A stretch of 53,469 bases of DNA from Desulfotomaculum sp. GTDB lineage: Bacteria; Bacillota; Desulfotomaculia; Desulfotomaculales; Desulfallaceae. Under the pieces are notes generated by a model, which worked only from the letters and a program-made list of their open reading frames with translations, did not search any database and was not told the origin of the DNA. Both the position numbers and the translations under genes were made by a program. Location: positions 1-53,469 of the forward strand of contig JAENYQ010000015.1 in NCBI GenBank assembly GCA_016841675.1, in the 5' to 3' direction. Shown one piece after another: positions 5,457 through 53,469 of this stretch (its first letter is position 1; each line of letters begins with the position of its first letter).

Positions 5457-5750
5457 CGTTAATACAGTAAGTGGTACAGCGTCGTGTCATTGCTACGAAT
5501 ACTACGGATCTGTCATTCTGAGCGCAGCGAAGAATCTTAAAGACTAGATCCTTCGCTGCGCTCAGGATGACAAGCTTAATCTTTGACGAAGGTAAATTTT
5601 ATTCGTTTATCGTGGTGTGGGTACGACGTGACAATTCTGAACGAAATGAAGAATCTAGATCCTTCGCTAACGCTCTTAGATGACAGCTTTCCCCCCACGG
5701 TGCACAATTGTTTATAAGAATGTTTATCTCATCAATGGGGATTAATTGAC
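5457..5750. repeat. Two adjacent copies of the GTCATTCTGAGCG palindromic repeat family
   Basis: The first hairpin (5511-5572) pairs TGTCATTCTGAGCGCAGCG with its inverted copy around an AGAATCT/AGATCC core. A second, longer copy (about 5590-5750) includes CGAAGGTAAATTTTATTCG, a central AGAATCTAGATCCTTCGC palindrome and the tail CACAATTGTTTAT, ending near CATCAATGGGGATTA. The second copy is repeated in inverted orientation at 53300-53469 and partly at 17655-17800. Together with the hairpin at 5406 this is what the 5294-5849 gap holds. Confidence 0.85.
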
Positions 5751-5794
5751 TAACTTCTTGCCCATTAGATTTATTTCGGAAATATCAATGTATG

Positions 5795-5837
5795 GGTCTT
5801 TAATTCTGACTCCTGAATCCTGACTTCTGAATTCTAG
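5795..5837. repeat. CTGACTCCTGAATTC-type short repeat
   Basis: ATTCTGACTCCTGAATCC followed by TGACTTCTGAATTC is a tandem of the same motif that forms the inverted repeat at 45425-45530. It lies just downstream of cobC. Confidence 0.6.
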
Positions 5838-16957: not shown

Positions 16958-17132
16958 GGGGTTTGGTGTTAATCGGAGGGTTATGTAGGAGCCAAATTCA
17001 AAGAGCGAGAGAGCCCGCGGAAAAGCGCCGGTGCATGTTTGAACGCAGGGCGTGAGTTCTCCGGCGCCCGAGGGCGAACGAGCTCGTTCAAGCATAATGG
17101 CGAGTGTAACCCGTAGATTAACACCAAACCCC
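16958..17132. repeat. Structured inverted-repeat element, copy 1
   Basis: 175 bp bounded by perfect 17-bp terminal inverted repeats (GGGGTTTGGTGTTAATC and its complement). Inside are three further self-complementary pairs: GGGTTA/TAACCC next to the ends, GCGCCGG (17025-17031)/CCGGCGC (17061-17067), and the palindrome GAACGAGCTCGTTC (17076-17089). The same architecture with different but still complementary bases occurs in the copy at 51282-51513. It fills the gap between spoVS and the M19 gene. It has no coding capacity. Confidence 0.85.
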
Positions 17133-17654: not shown

Positions 17655-17800
17655 TACCCTTAACTAAGTAAGTGGTAATGCATCATGTCATTGTAGAAAG
17701 AAGCGAAGAATCTAGATCCTTCGCTAACGCTCTTAAATGACTGCTTCCCTTTGAGGTGCACAATTGTTGATGAAAAATGATTTGCCCATTAATGGGTTTA
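17655..17800. repeat. GTCATTCTGAGCG repeat family, third copy
   Basis: Contains AGTAAGTGGTAATGCATC, AAGCGAAGAATCTAGATCC, TTCGCTAACGCTCTTAAATG and GGTGCACAATTGTTGATG, in the same order as 5468-5745. It lies between ymdB and spoVS. Confidence 0.75.
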
Positions 17801-17814
17801 CTGAGTAATGTTAA

Positions 17815-18600
17815 TTACTCATAATTCTGAATGCGTTTTATATTGGTTGCCGTCCCTGTTTGAGTATCGATGTCAATAATAACAGCATTAAACTGATATG
17901 GTCCGTTAGCTACTTCAAATTTTCTCGGCATCTGGGTGATGAACTTTTCCAGCACCGCTTCTTTTTTAACGCCGATAACCGAGTCCATCGGCCCAGTCAT
18001 GCCAACATCGGTAATATAAGCCGTACCTCCGGGAAAGACCCGCTCATCGGCGGTTTGTACATGGGTGTGGGTACCGCATACCGCCGACACCTTGCCTTCC
18101 AGGTGGTAGGCCATAGCAATTTTTTCAGACGTAGCTTCGGCATGAAAATCCAACAGGATAATTTTGCTCCAATCCTGCAACACCGGTATAACTTCGTCGG
18201 CTTTCCGAAACGGACAATCCAGATCTGGCATGAAAACACGACCGGACAGGTTGATTACCCCGACCTTGATACCGTTTTTTGTTTGGTACCGACCGTATCC
18301 TGCACCCGGTGCCCCGGGAGGATAATTACCTGGCCTGATGATCCTGTCTTCCTTGGCGATTAAGTTATATATCTCTTTTTTATTCCAAACATGGTTACCC
18401 ATGGTGATGACTTCCACGCCGGCCGAAAAGAGTTCACCGGCCACTTCTCGAGTGATTCCGTTACCCCCGGCGGCGTTTTCACCGTTGGCTATGGTCAGGT
18501 TTATTCTTTCGTCCCGTACCAACCCCGGGATATTCTCAATGAGCGCCCGACGTCCCGGGCGCCCCACAACATCACCAATCATTAATATTCTTATACTCAA
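17815..18600 (-). CDS. ymdB: YmdB-family metallophosphoesterase
   Basis: About 261 residues. Metal-site motifs GDVVGRPGR, ANGENAAGGNG, ITMGNHVWNKKE, LLDFHAEATSEK and GTHTHVQTADER, and the ending GMTGPMDSVIGV, mark the TIGR00282/YmdB family, dinuclear-metal 2',3'-cyclic nucleotide phosphodiesterases that influence biofilm and sporulation decisions in Bacillus. AGGTGG lies 8 nt before a TTG at 18598-18600, which I take as the start; the GTG at 18612 overlaps the Shine-Dalgarno. The upstream gene stops 12 nt away, and rny lies beyond it, the conserved rny-ymdB pairing. Confidence 0.93.
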   Translation of the reverse strand: MSIRILMIGDVVGRPGRRALIENIPGLVRDERINLTIANGENAAGGNGITREVAGELFSAGVEVITMGNHVWNKKEIYNLIAKEDRIIRPGNYPPGAPGAGYGRYQTKNGIKVGVINLSGRVFMPDLDCPFRKADEVIPVLQDWSKIILLDFHAEATSEKIAMAYHLEGKVSAVCGTHTHVQTADERVFPGGTAYITDVGMTGPMDSVIGVKKEAVLEKFITQMPRKFEVANGPYQFNAVIIDIDTQTGTATNIKRIQNYE

Positions 18601-22778: not shown

Positions 22779-22825
22779 CTTTAATTGGGGACATTCATAC
22801 ATTGGGGGTCCCGGTCCCCTTTCCT
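22779..22825. repeat. GGGGACA-type repeat fragment
   Basis: TTGGGGACATTCATACATTGG followed by GTCCCGGTCCCC resembles parts of the repeats at 35610-35695, 38690-38815 and 43750-43830. It lies between cinA and the recA promoter. Confidence 0.6.
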
Positions 22826-24068: not shown

Positions 24069-24185
24069 TTCTTCCACCCCACATTTTATATTGTGCTTAT
24101 TCGTGTTTAACTCGGCTATTCCCTGCCAGTATTTTATAAGTATGCTCTATTTTTAAGTCTCATTGCAAATAAGAAAGTAAAAAAC

Positions 24186-24242
24186 AAAAAGGGGACAGGC
24201 ATCTTTTTTCAAAAGCCGAAAAAAGCAGCCTGTCCCCTTTTT
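24186..24242. repeat. GGGGACAGGC long hairpin
   Basis: AAAAAGGGGACAGGC (24186-24200) and its exact inverse (24228-24242) enclose CTTTTTTC/GAAAAAAG, so nearly the whole 57 bp folds. A similar hairpin is at 30777-30837. It may also terminate transcription in both directions. Confidence 0.8.
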
Positions 24243-24257
24243 GGTATACTTTCCTTA

Positions 24258-30776: not shown

Positions 30777-30837
30777 CCCATAAGGGGACTGGTTGCTTTT
30801 TCAGTTTTTAAAAAAAAGCAGTCTGTCCCCTTATGGG
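30777..30837. repeat. GGGGAC-type hairpin with 13-bp arms
   Basis: CCCATAAGGGGAC (30777-30789) and its exact inverse (30825-30837) around an A/T-rich core containing TTTTTAAAAAAAA; related to the hairpin at 24186. The right arm overlaps the next element. Confidence 0.75.
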
Positions 30838-35610: not shown

Positions 35611-35690
35611 CAATCGGGGACATTCCTCGACCCCAAAGTCTTTTTTACCCCAAAGCTGAGGTGTGTCCCCTTTCACAAGTTGGGGACATC
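35611..35690. repeat. GGGGACATTCCTCGACCCC repeat
   Basis: ATCGGGGACATTCCTCGACC, CCAAAGCTGAGGTGTGTCCC and TTGGGGACAT follow each other between the RNase J stop and its terminator. The first two segments recur almost unchanged at 38708-38770. Confidence 0.75.
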
Positions 35691-38689: not shown

Positions 38690-38815
38690 TGGGAACATTC
38701 CTCGACCCAATCCAATCGGGGACATTCCTCGACCCCAAAGCTATGACCCTTAAGCTGAGGTGTGTCCCCATTCCTTGTTACCCATTAGCAGAGGGGTGCC
38801 CCCTATCCTTTATTG
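38690..38815. repeat. GGGGACATTCCTCGACCCC repeat between dapG and dapA
   Basis: Contains a degenerate (GGGAACATTCCTCGACCC) and a complete (CGGGGACATTCCTCGACCCC) copy, then AAGCTGAGGTGTGTCCCC and a further GAGGGGTGCCCC. Nearly identical to 35611-35670. Confidence 0.75.
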
Positions 38816-43739: not shown

Positions 43740-43852
43740 TGTACACTAACTGGGGACATCACTCCATTGGGGACATATGGGACATTCATACGTTGGGGAC
43801 TTTCCTCCGCAGGAGGTGTGTCCCCTTTCCTTAAACGGAGGCATGCCCTTTC
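43740..43852. repeat. GGGGACAT repeat cluster
   Basis: CTGGGGACATCACTCCATTG, GGGACATATGGGACATTCAT, ACGTTGGGGACTTTCCTCCG and AGGAGGTGTGTCCCC follow one another. This and a poorly defined hairpin near 43680-43720 (CCAATT/AATTGG followed downstream by TTTTT) fill most of the 43563-43941 gap. Confidence 0.7.
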
Positions 43853-44153: not shown

Positions 44154-44299
44154 ATACTAAAATCCGGTGTGTTTTGGTGTTAACGGAAAGTTATTTAGAA
44201 GCTTGGTTTAATAGCGAGAGGGCTTGAGGAAAAGCACCAGCGCGTGTTTTAAACATCCCTCGGGGTTCTCCCGCGCCCTTTAAGCAAACGGGTAGATTA
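44154..44299. repeat. Structured inverted-repeat element, copy 3 (truncated)
   Basis: Begins ATACTAAAATCCGGTG, TTTTGGTGTTAACGG and contains GCGAGAGGGCTTGAGGAAAAG, GGGGTTCTCCCGCGCCC and AAACGGGTAGATTA, in the order of the copies at 16958 and 51282. The right terminal repeat (ACACCAAACC) is missing, so the element is decayed. Confidence 0.75.
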
Positions 44300-44348
44300 G
44301 GGACCTTCTTACGTTGGGGAGATTTATCAAAATTTTCTCAACGATACC

Positions 44349-45424: not shown

Positions 45425-45531
45425 GGTATTTAGAATTCAGGAGTCAGAATTCAGAATTCAGAATAATTCAAGATGATAAAGCGTTCTTGCATTCTGGCTC
45501 CTGACTCCTGACTCCTGAATACTTTAAACTT
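45425..45531. repeat. CTGACTCCTGAATTC inverted-repeat element
   Basis: AGAATTCAGGAGTCAGAATTC with a second GAATTCAGAAT on the left and TTCTGGCTCCTGACTCCTGA, CTCCTGAATACTTT on the right pair with each other around a 30-bp core. Same motif at 5795-5837. Confidence 0.7.
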
Positions 45532-49084: not shown

Positions 49085-49343
49085 CTACCTTGGTTTTACT
49101 TATTTCTATTCCGTTGCCCAACAGTAAATACACACTCTACAACACCAACCACCATGGGGATACCGGCCCAAAATTTACTATAATAAGCTAAAGCACCCCG
49201 ATATCGCTTGACTTCATATCAAAGATGGTGTTTTAATATCATCAAATCTATAATTTGGTATAGTCAGCCCAAACGGTTTAGGTTACCTCTCTTTTCAGAA
49301 TAGATTGTTTAAAAAATTACCGGAATTGATGAGGAATTATAAG

Positions 49344-51284
49344 ATGAGTACAGACGTAATCAAGACATTAAAATCGGTTACGCCTTTTAATTCCCTAACA
49401 ATTGATGTACTTAACGAACTAATACCAAAACTAAAAATAAAAGATTATTTACCGGGTGACTATGTCTTTAAACAAGGAGAGCTCAGCCAGCGCTGTCTGT
49501 TCATTATCAGCCATGGTTCAGCGGAAATAACGGTAGCGAACGAAAAAGGCATTGAAGCTGTGGTTGGTTTCCGCCAACAACTTGATTTTTTTGGTGAGAC
49601 CGTAGTCCTCACCGACCTTACATACCCTGCATCTGTAAGGACCAAGGAGCAAATGACCTGCTTTTTGCTGGCCAGAAAGGACCTTGAACATCTAATTAAC
49701 AACCACTCTGACTTTGCTGGCTTTTTTAGCCTGATTCTTTCTGAGCGCATGCGTGTACTTTATGAGGAGATTGTGACCGAACAATCCTTTGAAGCATACA
49801 GTAGCGTTGATACCCCGCTGTTCAGTAAGCGAGTTAGCGAAATAATGTCGACACCGGTGCTCACCTGTCATCCCCGGCAACCAATAAAGTCTGCTGTTGA
49901 CATGATGCTCAAGAAAAATATCAGCTCGCTGGTAGTTACTGATGATAACTTTAAACCCCTGGGTATGATTACAGAAAAGGGGTTACTTAAAAGCATTGTG
50001 ACAGGGAACATCACTACCATAGAGAATTACACTGCCGGGGATATTATGGAGCATACTCTGGTAACCATCAGCCCTAAATCTTTGTTCAATCAAGCCCTGC
50101 TGGCCGTAATTAAGCATCAAGTTAAATACCTTATCGTGGTGGACCGTGAAAAACTGGTTGGTATTGTCACCCTCATGGATTTAGTTAAAGCGCGAAATAC
50201 GGGTACTCTATTACTCACCAGTGAGATTGACAATAAGCACACCATTGATGAACTAGTTGTTATCGGTCAGCAAATAAACAGCATACTATATGGTTTGGTA
50301 GCAGAAAAAGCGGCAGTCTCTACAAGCATGGAAATTATGACCGAACTACATGACCGCCTAACCCGTAAGATTATTATGATCTGTGAAAATGAAATGATAA
50401 ACAAGGGGCGGGGCAAACCGCCCGTGGATTACGCATGGATACATATGGGAAGTGCCGGTCGACGCGAAATGACTTTACGCACTGACCAGGATAACGCCAT
50501 TGTTTACGCCAACCCTGATGAGCAACAGGCTCAAAAAGTGACTGCTTATTTTCATGAACTAGCCGTAAGTATAGTGAATAGTCTGGAAAGATGCGGTTTT
50601 GCTAAATGCAAAGGCGGTGTTATGGCATCAAACTCGCTGTGGTGCCAATCGCTTAACGGATGGCGGGAAACAATACACGAATGGATGAAAAAAGGTATTC
50701 CCGAAAATGTCAGAGCACTAACCATATTCCTGGATTTTCGATATATCTATGGCTCAAGCGCTCTAGTCAATAAGTTGCAGGACATTGTTAAAACAATTGA
50801 CCCAGGAAGCGAGACCACCGTTATGGTTTCTCATCTGCTAACCCAGGACGATATCAAGTTTAAAGTCCCTTTAAACTTTATAGGAGGATTCATGACCAAT
50901 AAAAACGGGTCCCACAGGGGCGAAATAAATTTAAAGAACGCTGCCGCCATCCATATCGTAAACTGTATTAGGGTTTATGCTGTTAAGTACGGGATCCCCT
51001 TTACGTCGACCTTTGATCGAATTAGAATTCTAAGTGAACAAAAAATTATCCCCCCCGATGATGCCGAGCTGGTCAGCGCGGCTTATGAAACACTAATGAT
51101 GTTTCGCATTAGGGAAAATGTTAAAAAATTTAAACAAGGACAACAGCCAGATAACTACGTTAACCCATACCGGCTCAGCAAACGAGAACAGGCTCTATTA
51201 AAGGATGCTTTTACGGCCATCACCAGGCTGCAAAAGTTAACCAGCAACAGGTTCAGCATTTATTGGTTGAGTTACCTTAGTTAG
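49344..51284 (+). CDS. cNMP-binding/CBS/DUF294 nucleotidyltransferase-like protein
   Basis: About 646 residues, one of two plus-strand genes. Residues 10-130 are a cyclic-nucleotide-binding beta roll (PGDYVFKQGELSQRCLFIIS), 160-290 a CBS pair (VSEIMSTPVLTCHPRQPIKSA, IVGIVTLMDLVKA), 320-460 a DUF294 nucleotidyltransferase (GSAGRREMTLRTDQDNAIVY with the metal aspartates) and the rest DUF294_C. Such proteins are thought to be GlnD-like signal transducers. ATG at 49344 has AGGA 7 nt upstream; in-frame starts at 49305 and 49329 are possible. The stop codon TAG is the first three bases of the inserted repeat at 51282. Confidence 0.9.
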   Translation: MSTDVIKTLKSVTPFNSLTIDVLNELIPKLKIKDYLPGDYVFKQGELSQRCLFIISHGSAEITVANEKGIEAVVGFRQQLDFFGETVVLTDLTYPASVRTKEQMTCFLLARKDLEHLINNHSDFAGFFSLILSERMRVLYEEIVTEQSFEAYSSVDTPLFSKRVSEIMSTPVLTCHPRQPIKSAVDMMLKKNISSLVVTDDNFKPLGMITEKGLLKSIVTGNITTIENYTAGDIMEHTLVTISPKSLFNQALLAVIKHQVKYLIVVDREKLVGIVTLMDLVKARNTGTLLLTSEIDNKHTIDELVVIGQQINSILYGLVAEKAAVSTSMEIMTELHDRLTRKIIMICENEMINKGRGKPPVDYAWIHMGSAGRREMTLRTDQDNAIVYANPDEQQAQKVTAYFHELAVSIVNSLERCGFAKCKGGVMASNSLWCQSLNGWRETIHEWMKKGIPENVRALTIFLDFRYIYGSSALVNKLQDIVKTIDPGSETTVMVSHLLTQDDIKFKVPLNFIGGFMTNKNGSHRGEINLKNAAAIHIVNCIRVYAVKYGIPFTSTFDRIRILSEQKIIPPDDAELVSAAYETLMMFRIRENVKKFKQGQQPDNYVNPYRLSKREQALLKDAFTAITRLQKLTSNRFSIYWLSYLS

Positions 51285-51513
51285 TTCCCCCTGAAAAAGT
51301 CTGTGCAGGGTTTGGTGTTATCTACAGGATGCTACTCGCTTTTATACATGAACGAGCTCATTCGCTTACGGACGCCGGAGAACTCGCGCCCTTCGGGCAC
51401 GAAAGTCTAGCTCCGGCGTTTTTCCTCCAGCTCTTTCGCTCTTTCAATTAAGCTCCTATGCATCCTTCCGATAACACCAAACCCACCGAAGTTTAGTTTT
51501 TCAGGGGGAACTA
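51282..51513. repeat. Structured inverted-repeat element, copy 2 (232 bp, complete)
   Basis: Outer 17-bp repeats TAGTTCCCCCTGAAAAA (51282-51298) and its inverse (51497-51513); inner 15-bp repeats GGGTTTGGTGTTATC (51308-51322) and its inverse (51470-51484); then AGGATGC/GCATCCT, ACGCCGG/CCGGCGT and GAACGAGCTCATTC (51350-51363). Read in reverse it aligns with 16958-17132 over its length. The pairs differ from copy 1 by compensating changes. It sits between two plus-strand genes of one putative operon. Confidence 0.85.
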
Positions 51514-51533
51514 GTTAGTAAGGAGGCAGTATA

Positions 51534-52283
51534 TTGTTTACGCCGCTAATTAACAGGTTAAATTTAACCGGAAAATACAGTTATCCCGGTCCGCCACCCA
51601 GTGAAGCAACAGTTAAAGAAATTAAAGAATTAGCAGAAAAGGCCAAAAATTTTAAAAACCTTAACACCCCTATGGATGAACTAATTTTTACCGTTTTAGA
51701 CACTGAAACCACTGGTTTTTGTGCCCATCAGGGCGATGAAATTATTTCTCTTGGAGCTGTGAAAATGTCCGGGACCCAAATTATAACTGCTAAAAAATTT
51801 CACCGATTGGTCAACCCATACCGACCGATACCCGAATTAATAACCCAGCTAACCGGCATCGACAATAACATGGCCGACAACGAGGAAGATGTATTTAGTG
51901 CGTTAAGGGAAATGTTGGGCTTTCTCGGTAACACCATCATGGTTGGTCACTCCCTGGGTTTGGATCTGGCCTTTATTAACCGCAAATTGAAACATTTTTG
52001 TAATACCAGGGTGCACAATATTATTATCGATACCAAAAATATTGCCAATGCTATGTATCCGCCTGATAGTGCAACAGATCTGGACACGTTGCTGCAATTG
52101 CACGACATCGAACCCCAAGGCCGCCATACCGCCATAGGCGACGCCCTCCTTACAGCTAAGCTGTTTGGGATATTTATTAAAAAAATGCGCAAAAATCAAA
52201 TTAGAACCGTTAAGGAACTATACGATTTTATTTATCACGGTGACACTGTACACAGCATTAACCGCGTGTTTTTTCACTGGTAA
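51534..52283 (+). CDS. DEDDh 3'-5' exonuclease (DnaQ/PolC-epsilon type)
   Basis: 249 residues. After about 50 charged residues the exonuclease domain begins: TVLDTETTGF (Exo I), VGHSLGLDLAFI (Exo II) and RHTAIGDALLTAKLF (Exo III with His and Asp), the complete DEDDh set. TTG start with AAGGAGG 7 nt upstream. DUF294/CBS proteins are often encoded with such exonucleases, so these two probably form an operon, now separated by a 232-bp repeat. The actual substrate (DNA or RNA) cannot be told. Confidence 0.88.
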   Translation: MFTPLINRLNLTGKYSYPGPPPSEATVKEIKELAEKAKNFKNLNTPMDELIFTVLDTETTGFCAHQGDEIISLGAVKMSGTQIITAKKFHRLVNPYRPIPELITQLTGIDNNMADNEEDVFSALREMLGFLGNTIMVGHSLGLDLAFINRKLKHFCNTRVHNIIIDTKNIANAMYPPDSATDLDTLLQLHDIEPQGRHTAIGDALLTAKLFGIFIKKMRKNQIRTVKELYDFIYHGDTVHSINRVFFHW

Positions 52284-52390
52284 GTTTCATAATTTTCTTA
52301 ATCTTCATACCGTTTATTTTAGGCCCATAATTTGGGGGCAAGTTATAACATGGTTTTATGATCATGAGAAAACTGCCTGGCTCGCATAAG

Positions 52391-52420
52391 CTAGTTCCCC
52401 TGAACAAAACACCAAACCCT
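52391..52420. repeat. Scrap of the structured element after the exonuclease gene
   Basis: CTAGTTCCCCTGAACAAAA followed by CACCAAACCC joins the outer and inner terminal repeat sequences of the element at 51282-51513. It suggests a deleted or decayed copy. The surrounding 52284-52487 holds an imperfect inverted repeat (CTGGCTCGCATAAGCTAGT and its counterpart) and no gene. Confidence 0.55.
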
Positions 52421-52487
52421 AACCAAACTTTTTCTGCGAGTACTAGCTAGAGTTAGCGCTGCCAGGCTATTTGGGGATAGATTTTGA

Positions 52488-53168: not shown

Positions 53169-53299
53169 ACAAATACCCCCCGAATCTTAAAATTTAAGAC
53201 TAAAATTAATAGCACCAAACTGGAGTTTGTAACATCCCATTTAAGTAGTTTTAGAATAAGTTGGTCTTCGAAAATCCCTCTATTAAAAAACATGATTAT

Positions 53300-53469
53300 T
53301 CCCTTTACTCAGTAATCCCATTGATGAGATAAGCATTTTTAATAAACAATTGTTCAACGCGGGGGAGAGCTGTCATCTAAGAGCGTTAGCGAAGGATCTA
53401 GATTCTTCACTTCGTTCAGAATTACCACGCGTACCCGCACTACGATAAACGAATACAACTTACCGGTTG
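53300..53469. repeat. GTCATTCTGAGCG repeat family, inverted long copy
   Basis: The reverse complement of this segment follows 5590-5750 base by base with scattered changes: TTCGTTTATCG, TAATTCTGAACGAAGTGAAG, ATCTAGATCCTTCGCTAACG, CTCTTAGATGACAGCT, CAATTGTTTATT and CATCAATGGGATTACTGAG. It reaches the window end, so its left end is not seen. Confidence 0.8.

Follow-up and report, generated by a model that had tools for sequence, protein, structure and literature searches.

A near-palindromic element found in two good copies in the window analysed here (the whole stretch of 53,469 nucleotides of contig JAENYQ010000015.1, Desulfotomaculum sp., GCA_016841675.1) is probably a non-autonomous DNA transposon (MITE) built around a conserved rod-shaped hairpin that is selected mostly in the transcript. 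The element duplicates 4 bp of target on insertion, is amplified genome by genome and becomes shorter through internal deletions. Cutting at its ends would be done by a DDE-type transposase whose gene lies elsewhere or has been lost. The rod is a series of 2-5-bp helices with symmetric purine loops rich in tandem GA/GA between them and a GC hairpin cap, and has been retained for long in many Firmicutes families, the outer arms and ends being replaced in each lineage.

Copies in the window

The regions 16958-17132 (plus strand) and 51307-51485 (minus strand) are two copies of one near-palindromic element, and match each other in inverse orientation. Copy 1 (16958-17132), of the TTAATC/GGGTTA subfamily, comprises P1 arms at 16958-16983 and 17107-17132 with 88% complementarity and a conserved core at 16990-17102 (plus strand) that matches the core model R2. 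Its outer inverted ends are unrecognisable, the copy being older or truncated, and no open reading frame of at least 90 aa overlaps the rod. The second rod (P1 arms and core, 51307-51485, minus strand) has its arms at 51308-51332 and 51460-51484, also with 88% complementarity, and lies within a complete element with inverted ends at 51283-51512 (minus strand). The terminal inverted repeats AGTTCCCCCTGAAAAA (left, 51283-51298, plus strand) and TTTTTCAGGGGGAACT (right, 51497-51512, minus strand) are flanked by the 4-bp target duplication AGTT at 51279-51282 and 51513-51516. Both copies matched the model at E <= 1e-40, gave folding z scores of -8.9 and -10.5 against shuffled sequences, and are oriented against their flanking genes. 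The neighbours of the complete element are a gene for a CBS-domain protein (49305-51284) and one that resembles an exonuclease gene (51534-52283), both named from a reading of their translations without database search. The insertion overlaps the 3' end of the upstream reading frame (window 51279-51284), whose stop codon lies partly in the target duplication and partly in the first bases of the element.

An earlier note, made from the letters of the window, had listed three copies, at 16958, 44154 and 51282. The first and third stood, the third with its strand changed to minus and its limits set at 51283-51512 for the whole element with ends; at the second, only a decayed remnant was found (44169-44335, plus strand, 23.5 bits, E=3e-4), in which many pairs are broken and the 3' half and most pairs are gone. 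A 52-bp internal-deletion derivative with the same ends lies at 52393-52444 (plus strand) between AGCT duplications at 52389-52392 and 52445-52448. The paired differences that the same note had read between copies are present in the alignment, as TTAATC/GATTAA versus TTATC/GATAA in the outer stem, GGGTTA/TAACCC versus GGATGC/GCATCC in the next pair and GCGCC/GGCGC versus ACGCC/GGCGT in the third, and they separate two subfamilies, both of which also occur in a sister genome. The GAACGAGCTCGTTC hairpin, taken there as a shared part of the fold, proved to be a local palindrome peculiar to this lineage; in the family as a whole, the same letters pair with an upstream GARC instead.

Ends, target duplications and mobility

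Comparison of the flanks of many copies gave a full element of about 230 bp, in which inverted ends AGTTCCCCCTGAAAAA...TTTTTCAGGGGGAACT of about 16 bp enclose the rod. A perfect 4-bp target duplication was found in all seven elements of the own genome (G000), which are 230, 230, 108, 91, 53, 53 and 52 bp long and have the duplications AGTT, ACCT, AGTT, ATAT, AAAT, AGTT and AGCT, respectively; the target is mostly ANNT. Short elements (52-108 bp) are internal deletions of the long one and have their ends in common with it. Outside the own genome, five more duplications were found in copies of relatives and six in family f7, beside one imperfect case and several ambiguous ones. The site of the element at 51283-51512 is empty in the sister genome G001 (G001:C28), where it reads GTTACCT-CGGTC-AGTAAGGAGG, and uninterrupted matches in G001 run across two other joined sites with less clean junction alignments. 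Mobility is well supported because of the inverted ends, the perfect duplications and the empty site, and with dispersed copies that carry no transposase gene the element is classed as a MITE. The earlier view of a folded, dispersed, protein-free element that moves was thus borne out by the ends, the duplications, the empty site and a fold kept across many families. Tandem arrays occur on C45 (period 229) and C140 (period 288).

The ends differ between lineages. Those of f1 are AGTTCCCCCTGAAAAA and those of f7 are AGATTCCGCTGAAAAAGTC, where six duplications of 4 bp are perfect. In f15 and f18 the ends are of other sequences, with a TGAAAA motif retained outside P1, and in f31, f39 and f16 they differ again. 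Judging from their ends and 4-bp duplications, f1 and f7 were probably moved by related transposases. The mobilising IS would have ends of the form AG(A/T)T...CTGAAAAAGTC and produce 4-bp duplications. End-pattern searches of G000, G001 and G003 yielded neither an autonomous element with the same ends nor a pair of matching ends at 1-3 kb spacing with signs of a transposase; a 3.7-kb pair of ends was found in G042, and a transposase was absent from the stretches examined.

Distribution and amplification

With the core covariance model, 18 copies were found in the own genome (model R2), and copies were present in 35 of the 113 genomes of the class and in 31 of 398 genomes sampled across the phylum (about 20 genera), with a maximum of 33 per genome. 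A BLAST search with a divergent own-genome copy gave hits to 32 of the 113 genomes of the order, some of the hits being confined to the 26-nt motif flanking the query. Of 190 distinct copies, 120 had their nearest relative within their own genome, 62 elsewhere in their family and 8 outside it, which points to repeated amplification within lineages. The searches run against viruses, phages and plasmids gave no match. G001 corresponds to Peptococcaceae bacterium BRH_c8a and G003 to MAG.313 (coordinates and sequence in common).

Fold and covariation

Single-sequence folds of divergent members gave the same rod, with purine-rich loops between the helices. P1 (about 15 bp, of lineage-specific sequence) is followed inward by P2, P3, P4 (GARC/GYTC) and P5 (4 bp), and the inner rod consists of P6 (GG/CC), P7 (GC/GC) and an apical GC hairpin. 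The symmetric purine loops are among the most conserved letters; at one step, GCGAGG/CCGAGC, f15 and f16 have a tandem GA where Watson-Crick pairs stand elsewhere. The fold of one member (L146) agrees only in the outer helices and the apical hairpin. At three loci of G003 (C483, C225 and C233; L119, L123 and L126), the apical hairpin is swapped for a longer arm, CCCGGCACTCAGGCT...CCTGAGTGCCGGG, of about 50 nt more, and the tip of the rod is therefore exchangeable too.

Covariation, which the earlier note had read from three copies, is not demonstrable at that sample size; it is weak in 17 close copies, where double changes were found in 6 of 50 pairs (15 cells versus 4.7 after shuffling), and clear in the wider family. 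In alignment A3, double changes were found in 10 of 19 core pairs (43 cells versus 16.5 after shuffling, and at most 11 in slid controls). In a sequence-only alignment of 45 divergent cores, the eight strongest covarying pairs all fall in one nested rod; two of them have E<0.025 and a third 0.075, the rest of the eight being not individually significant, by an in-house test used in place of R-scape (G statistic with APC, 40 tree-based null alignments, a small null). Covarying pairs beyond phylogeny, as in a structured RNA, were thus found, and conservation of the fold over many families is well supported.

These data bear on the rival reading of an ordinary MITE, in which the fold is a by-product of a palindromic origin and the rod has no function. 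Many copies are decayed or truncated, and recent copies within the genus show little beyond drift (the 6 of 50 pairs above), as this reading expects, but the letters of the core and its nested covariation are found from family to family even where arms and ends have been replaced, and the copies are biased in orientation (see below), so that a functionless rod is decidedly unlikely. The narrower alternative raised in the earlier note, plain divergence of a MITE lacking conserved internal stems, does not fit the covariation across the family and is rejected. It is also conceivable, but in our estimate unlikely, that the rod functions as an RNA module, probably by binding protein through a ladder of sheared GA pairs, and that transposons with different ends have carried or recaptured it across Firmicutes. 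This would be a bacterial counterpart of SINEs, with the structured RNA as the lasting part and the DNA ends as the exchangeable one.

Orientation and the level of selection

Between co-directional genes, as assigned by a simple ORF rule that may err in single cases, 87 of the 190 distinct copies run along the genes and 38 opposite (p=1.4e-5). With both genes within 300 nt the counts were 70 and 22; after merging of orthologous sites they were 83 and 33 (p=4e-6), and 66 and 23 after lenient merging. The bias is strong in f15 (28:4), f1 (16:6) and f31 (7:0); f16 (11:13) shows none, and in f39 (2:6) it runs the other way. Action in the transcript is suggested by this bias, and is likely but unproven. 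In the MITE with a transcript-selected rod that we favour, selection would act mostly after insertion, and copies whose purine-loop strand is transcribed between co-directional genes would persist about twice as often as those in the other orientation; the transcribed rod would be rigid and possibly protein-bound or processed by RNase between the cistrons, where it might be tolerated or be useful for differential mRNA stability.

Two other causes of the orientation were considered and rejected. Where the flanking genes converge or diverge, the element did not favour the regional majority strand (23 of 42, low power), a preference that insertion by replication strand would produce. Runs of T beyond the rod are no commoner on the forward than on the reverse side (50 versus 52 of 190 copies), which speaks against an intrinsic terminator. 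The equal T-runs also weigh against the reading as a non-coding RNA gene in its own right (a discrete sRNA or something like a riboswitch) that spreads just now and then. A copy at G000:C47 in which the outer stem is followed by TTTTTT resembles an intrinsic terminator and would suit such a gene, as does the fact that Rfam holds no such gene; but up to 33 copies occur in single genomes in unrelated neighbourhoods, the target duplications are perfect, and the reading is very improbable. A parental gene was sought among the terminator-like copies in G000, G005 and G008 and rejected: these have different neighbours and fragments elsewhere, and are therefore apparently mobile copies too.

Departures from pairing in the arms were about equally often G-U (30) and A-C (23), and in recent copies 22 and 16, so that strand-specific pairing, with G-U tolerated and A-C not, was not observed. 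Since G-U is not in excess over A-C, the complementarity of the arms may be kept at the DNA level, which argues against strong RNA-only selection on the arms. It might then be proposed that the whole element is a palindrome acting as DNA, either recognised as a cruciform or as single-stranded DNA by a transposase or host protein, or re-matched in its arms by intrastrand templated repair, the transcript being irrelevant. The arms, nearly perfect in Watson-Crick pairing, and the new arm sequences of each lineage, which match in both arms, agree with this. The purine loops, symmetric and highly conserved, would be lost under templated repair; the orientation bias relative to genes is unexpected if DNA alone matters, and at the 42 convergent or divergent sites (low power) no sign of replication-strand bias was seen. 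We consider the proposal possible but somewhat unlikely. As to the choice between structured RNA and folded DNA in the earlier note, RNA is favoured by the orientation bias, and DNA is allowed by the missing G-U excess.

Other repeats in the window and relatives

The window also holds repeated copies of a REP-like hairpin, GGGGACATTC...GTGTCCCC, at 22788-22807, 35611-35677, 38713-38810 and 43753-43832. In two genera, it has landed at no fewer than three sites inside rod copies (G000:C140:8501-8577, G000:C5:7409-7456 and G005:C60, L120), which gives the rod the look of a favoured target. Many genomes of the order contain the 26-nt sequence TTTTTTATTGTTAAGGAAAGTATACT, whether or not the rod is nearby and often directly 3' of a terminator-like hairpin (L021/L139, L156, L158, L159, L162-L165 and L167). 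A second dispersed inverted-repeat element, unrelated to the rod, is present at 5511-5739, 17696-17815 and 53298-53464, with arms of 120, 69 and 35 nt shared between the sites. Near-perfect short hairpins such as CAAAAAGGGGACAGGC...GCCTGTCCCCTTTTTG (24185-24243 and 30777-30837) probably form another REP-type family, and short direct and inverted repeats of the type AATTCTGACTCCTGAATCC lie at 5793-5835 and 45432-45523.

Relation to known repeat families

A search of 4227 Rfam families at gathering and permissive thresholds (up to E=1) gave no match to the element; HEARO (RF02033), the IS605-linked RNA that the earlier note had named among the models to search, is thereby excluded. In the literature searched, subscription papers excepted, no description of the rod family was found, and nothing matched among the repeats of Desulfotomaculum-like genomes.

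By its behaviour, the element groups with bcr1, ERIC, YPAL, Correia/NEMIS and similar repeats. The bcr1-bcr18 repeats of the Bacillus cereus group are MITE-like, about 150-170 bp long and intergenic, with a conserved fold, and are frequent in UTRs or operon gaps (PMC3446304, PMC2267715). The rod element is likewise MITE-like and dispersed between genes with its fold conserved, but bcr1 is by description specific to the B. cereus group whereas the rod core occurs in about 20 genera and many families. ERIC and YPAL of enterobacteria and Yersinia are palindromic mobile intergenic repeats, as the present element is, and ERIC acts in mRNA depending on orientation (De Gregorio work reviewed in PMC2229807); they belong to another phylum, and the ladder of tandem GA loops of the rod was not found in their descriptions. 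Correia/NEMIS elements of Neisseria are MITEs of about 107-155 bp with inverted ends; they fold in transcripts, and RNase III cuts them at their ends (PMC2229807, PMC10969869). The rod element is also a MITE with inverted ends, but they are Neisseria-specific, and it has a 4-bp target and conserves its internal rod instead of its ends. REPs are 20-40 bp long with a GTAG or CGTC tag (PMC3733652). REP/REPIN sequences with RAYT transposases are dispersed intergenic hairpins like the rod element, but have no target duplication; identity with them was rejected by the 230 bp, inverted ends and 4-bp duplications of the rod element. Set against these descriptions, the element is distinguished by the depth of conservation of the rod and by the exchange of ends around it.

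Significance

The palindromic repeats compared above have been described as bound to one genus or group; the rod fold is traceable across many families. Since this large structured family is absent from Rfam, Rfam-based annotation overlooks the rod in many Firmicutes genomes. With ends that can be exchanged and an orientation that tends to follow the genes, the element offers a testable case for repeats that are kept for a role in the transcript.
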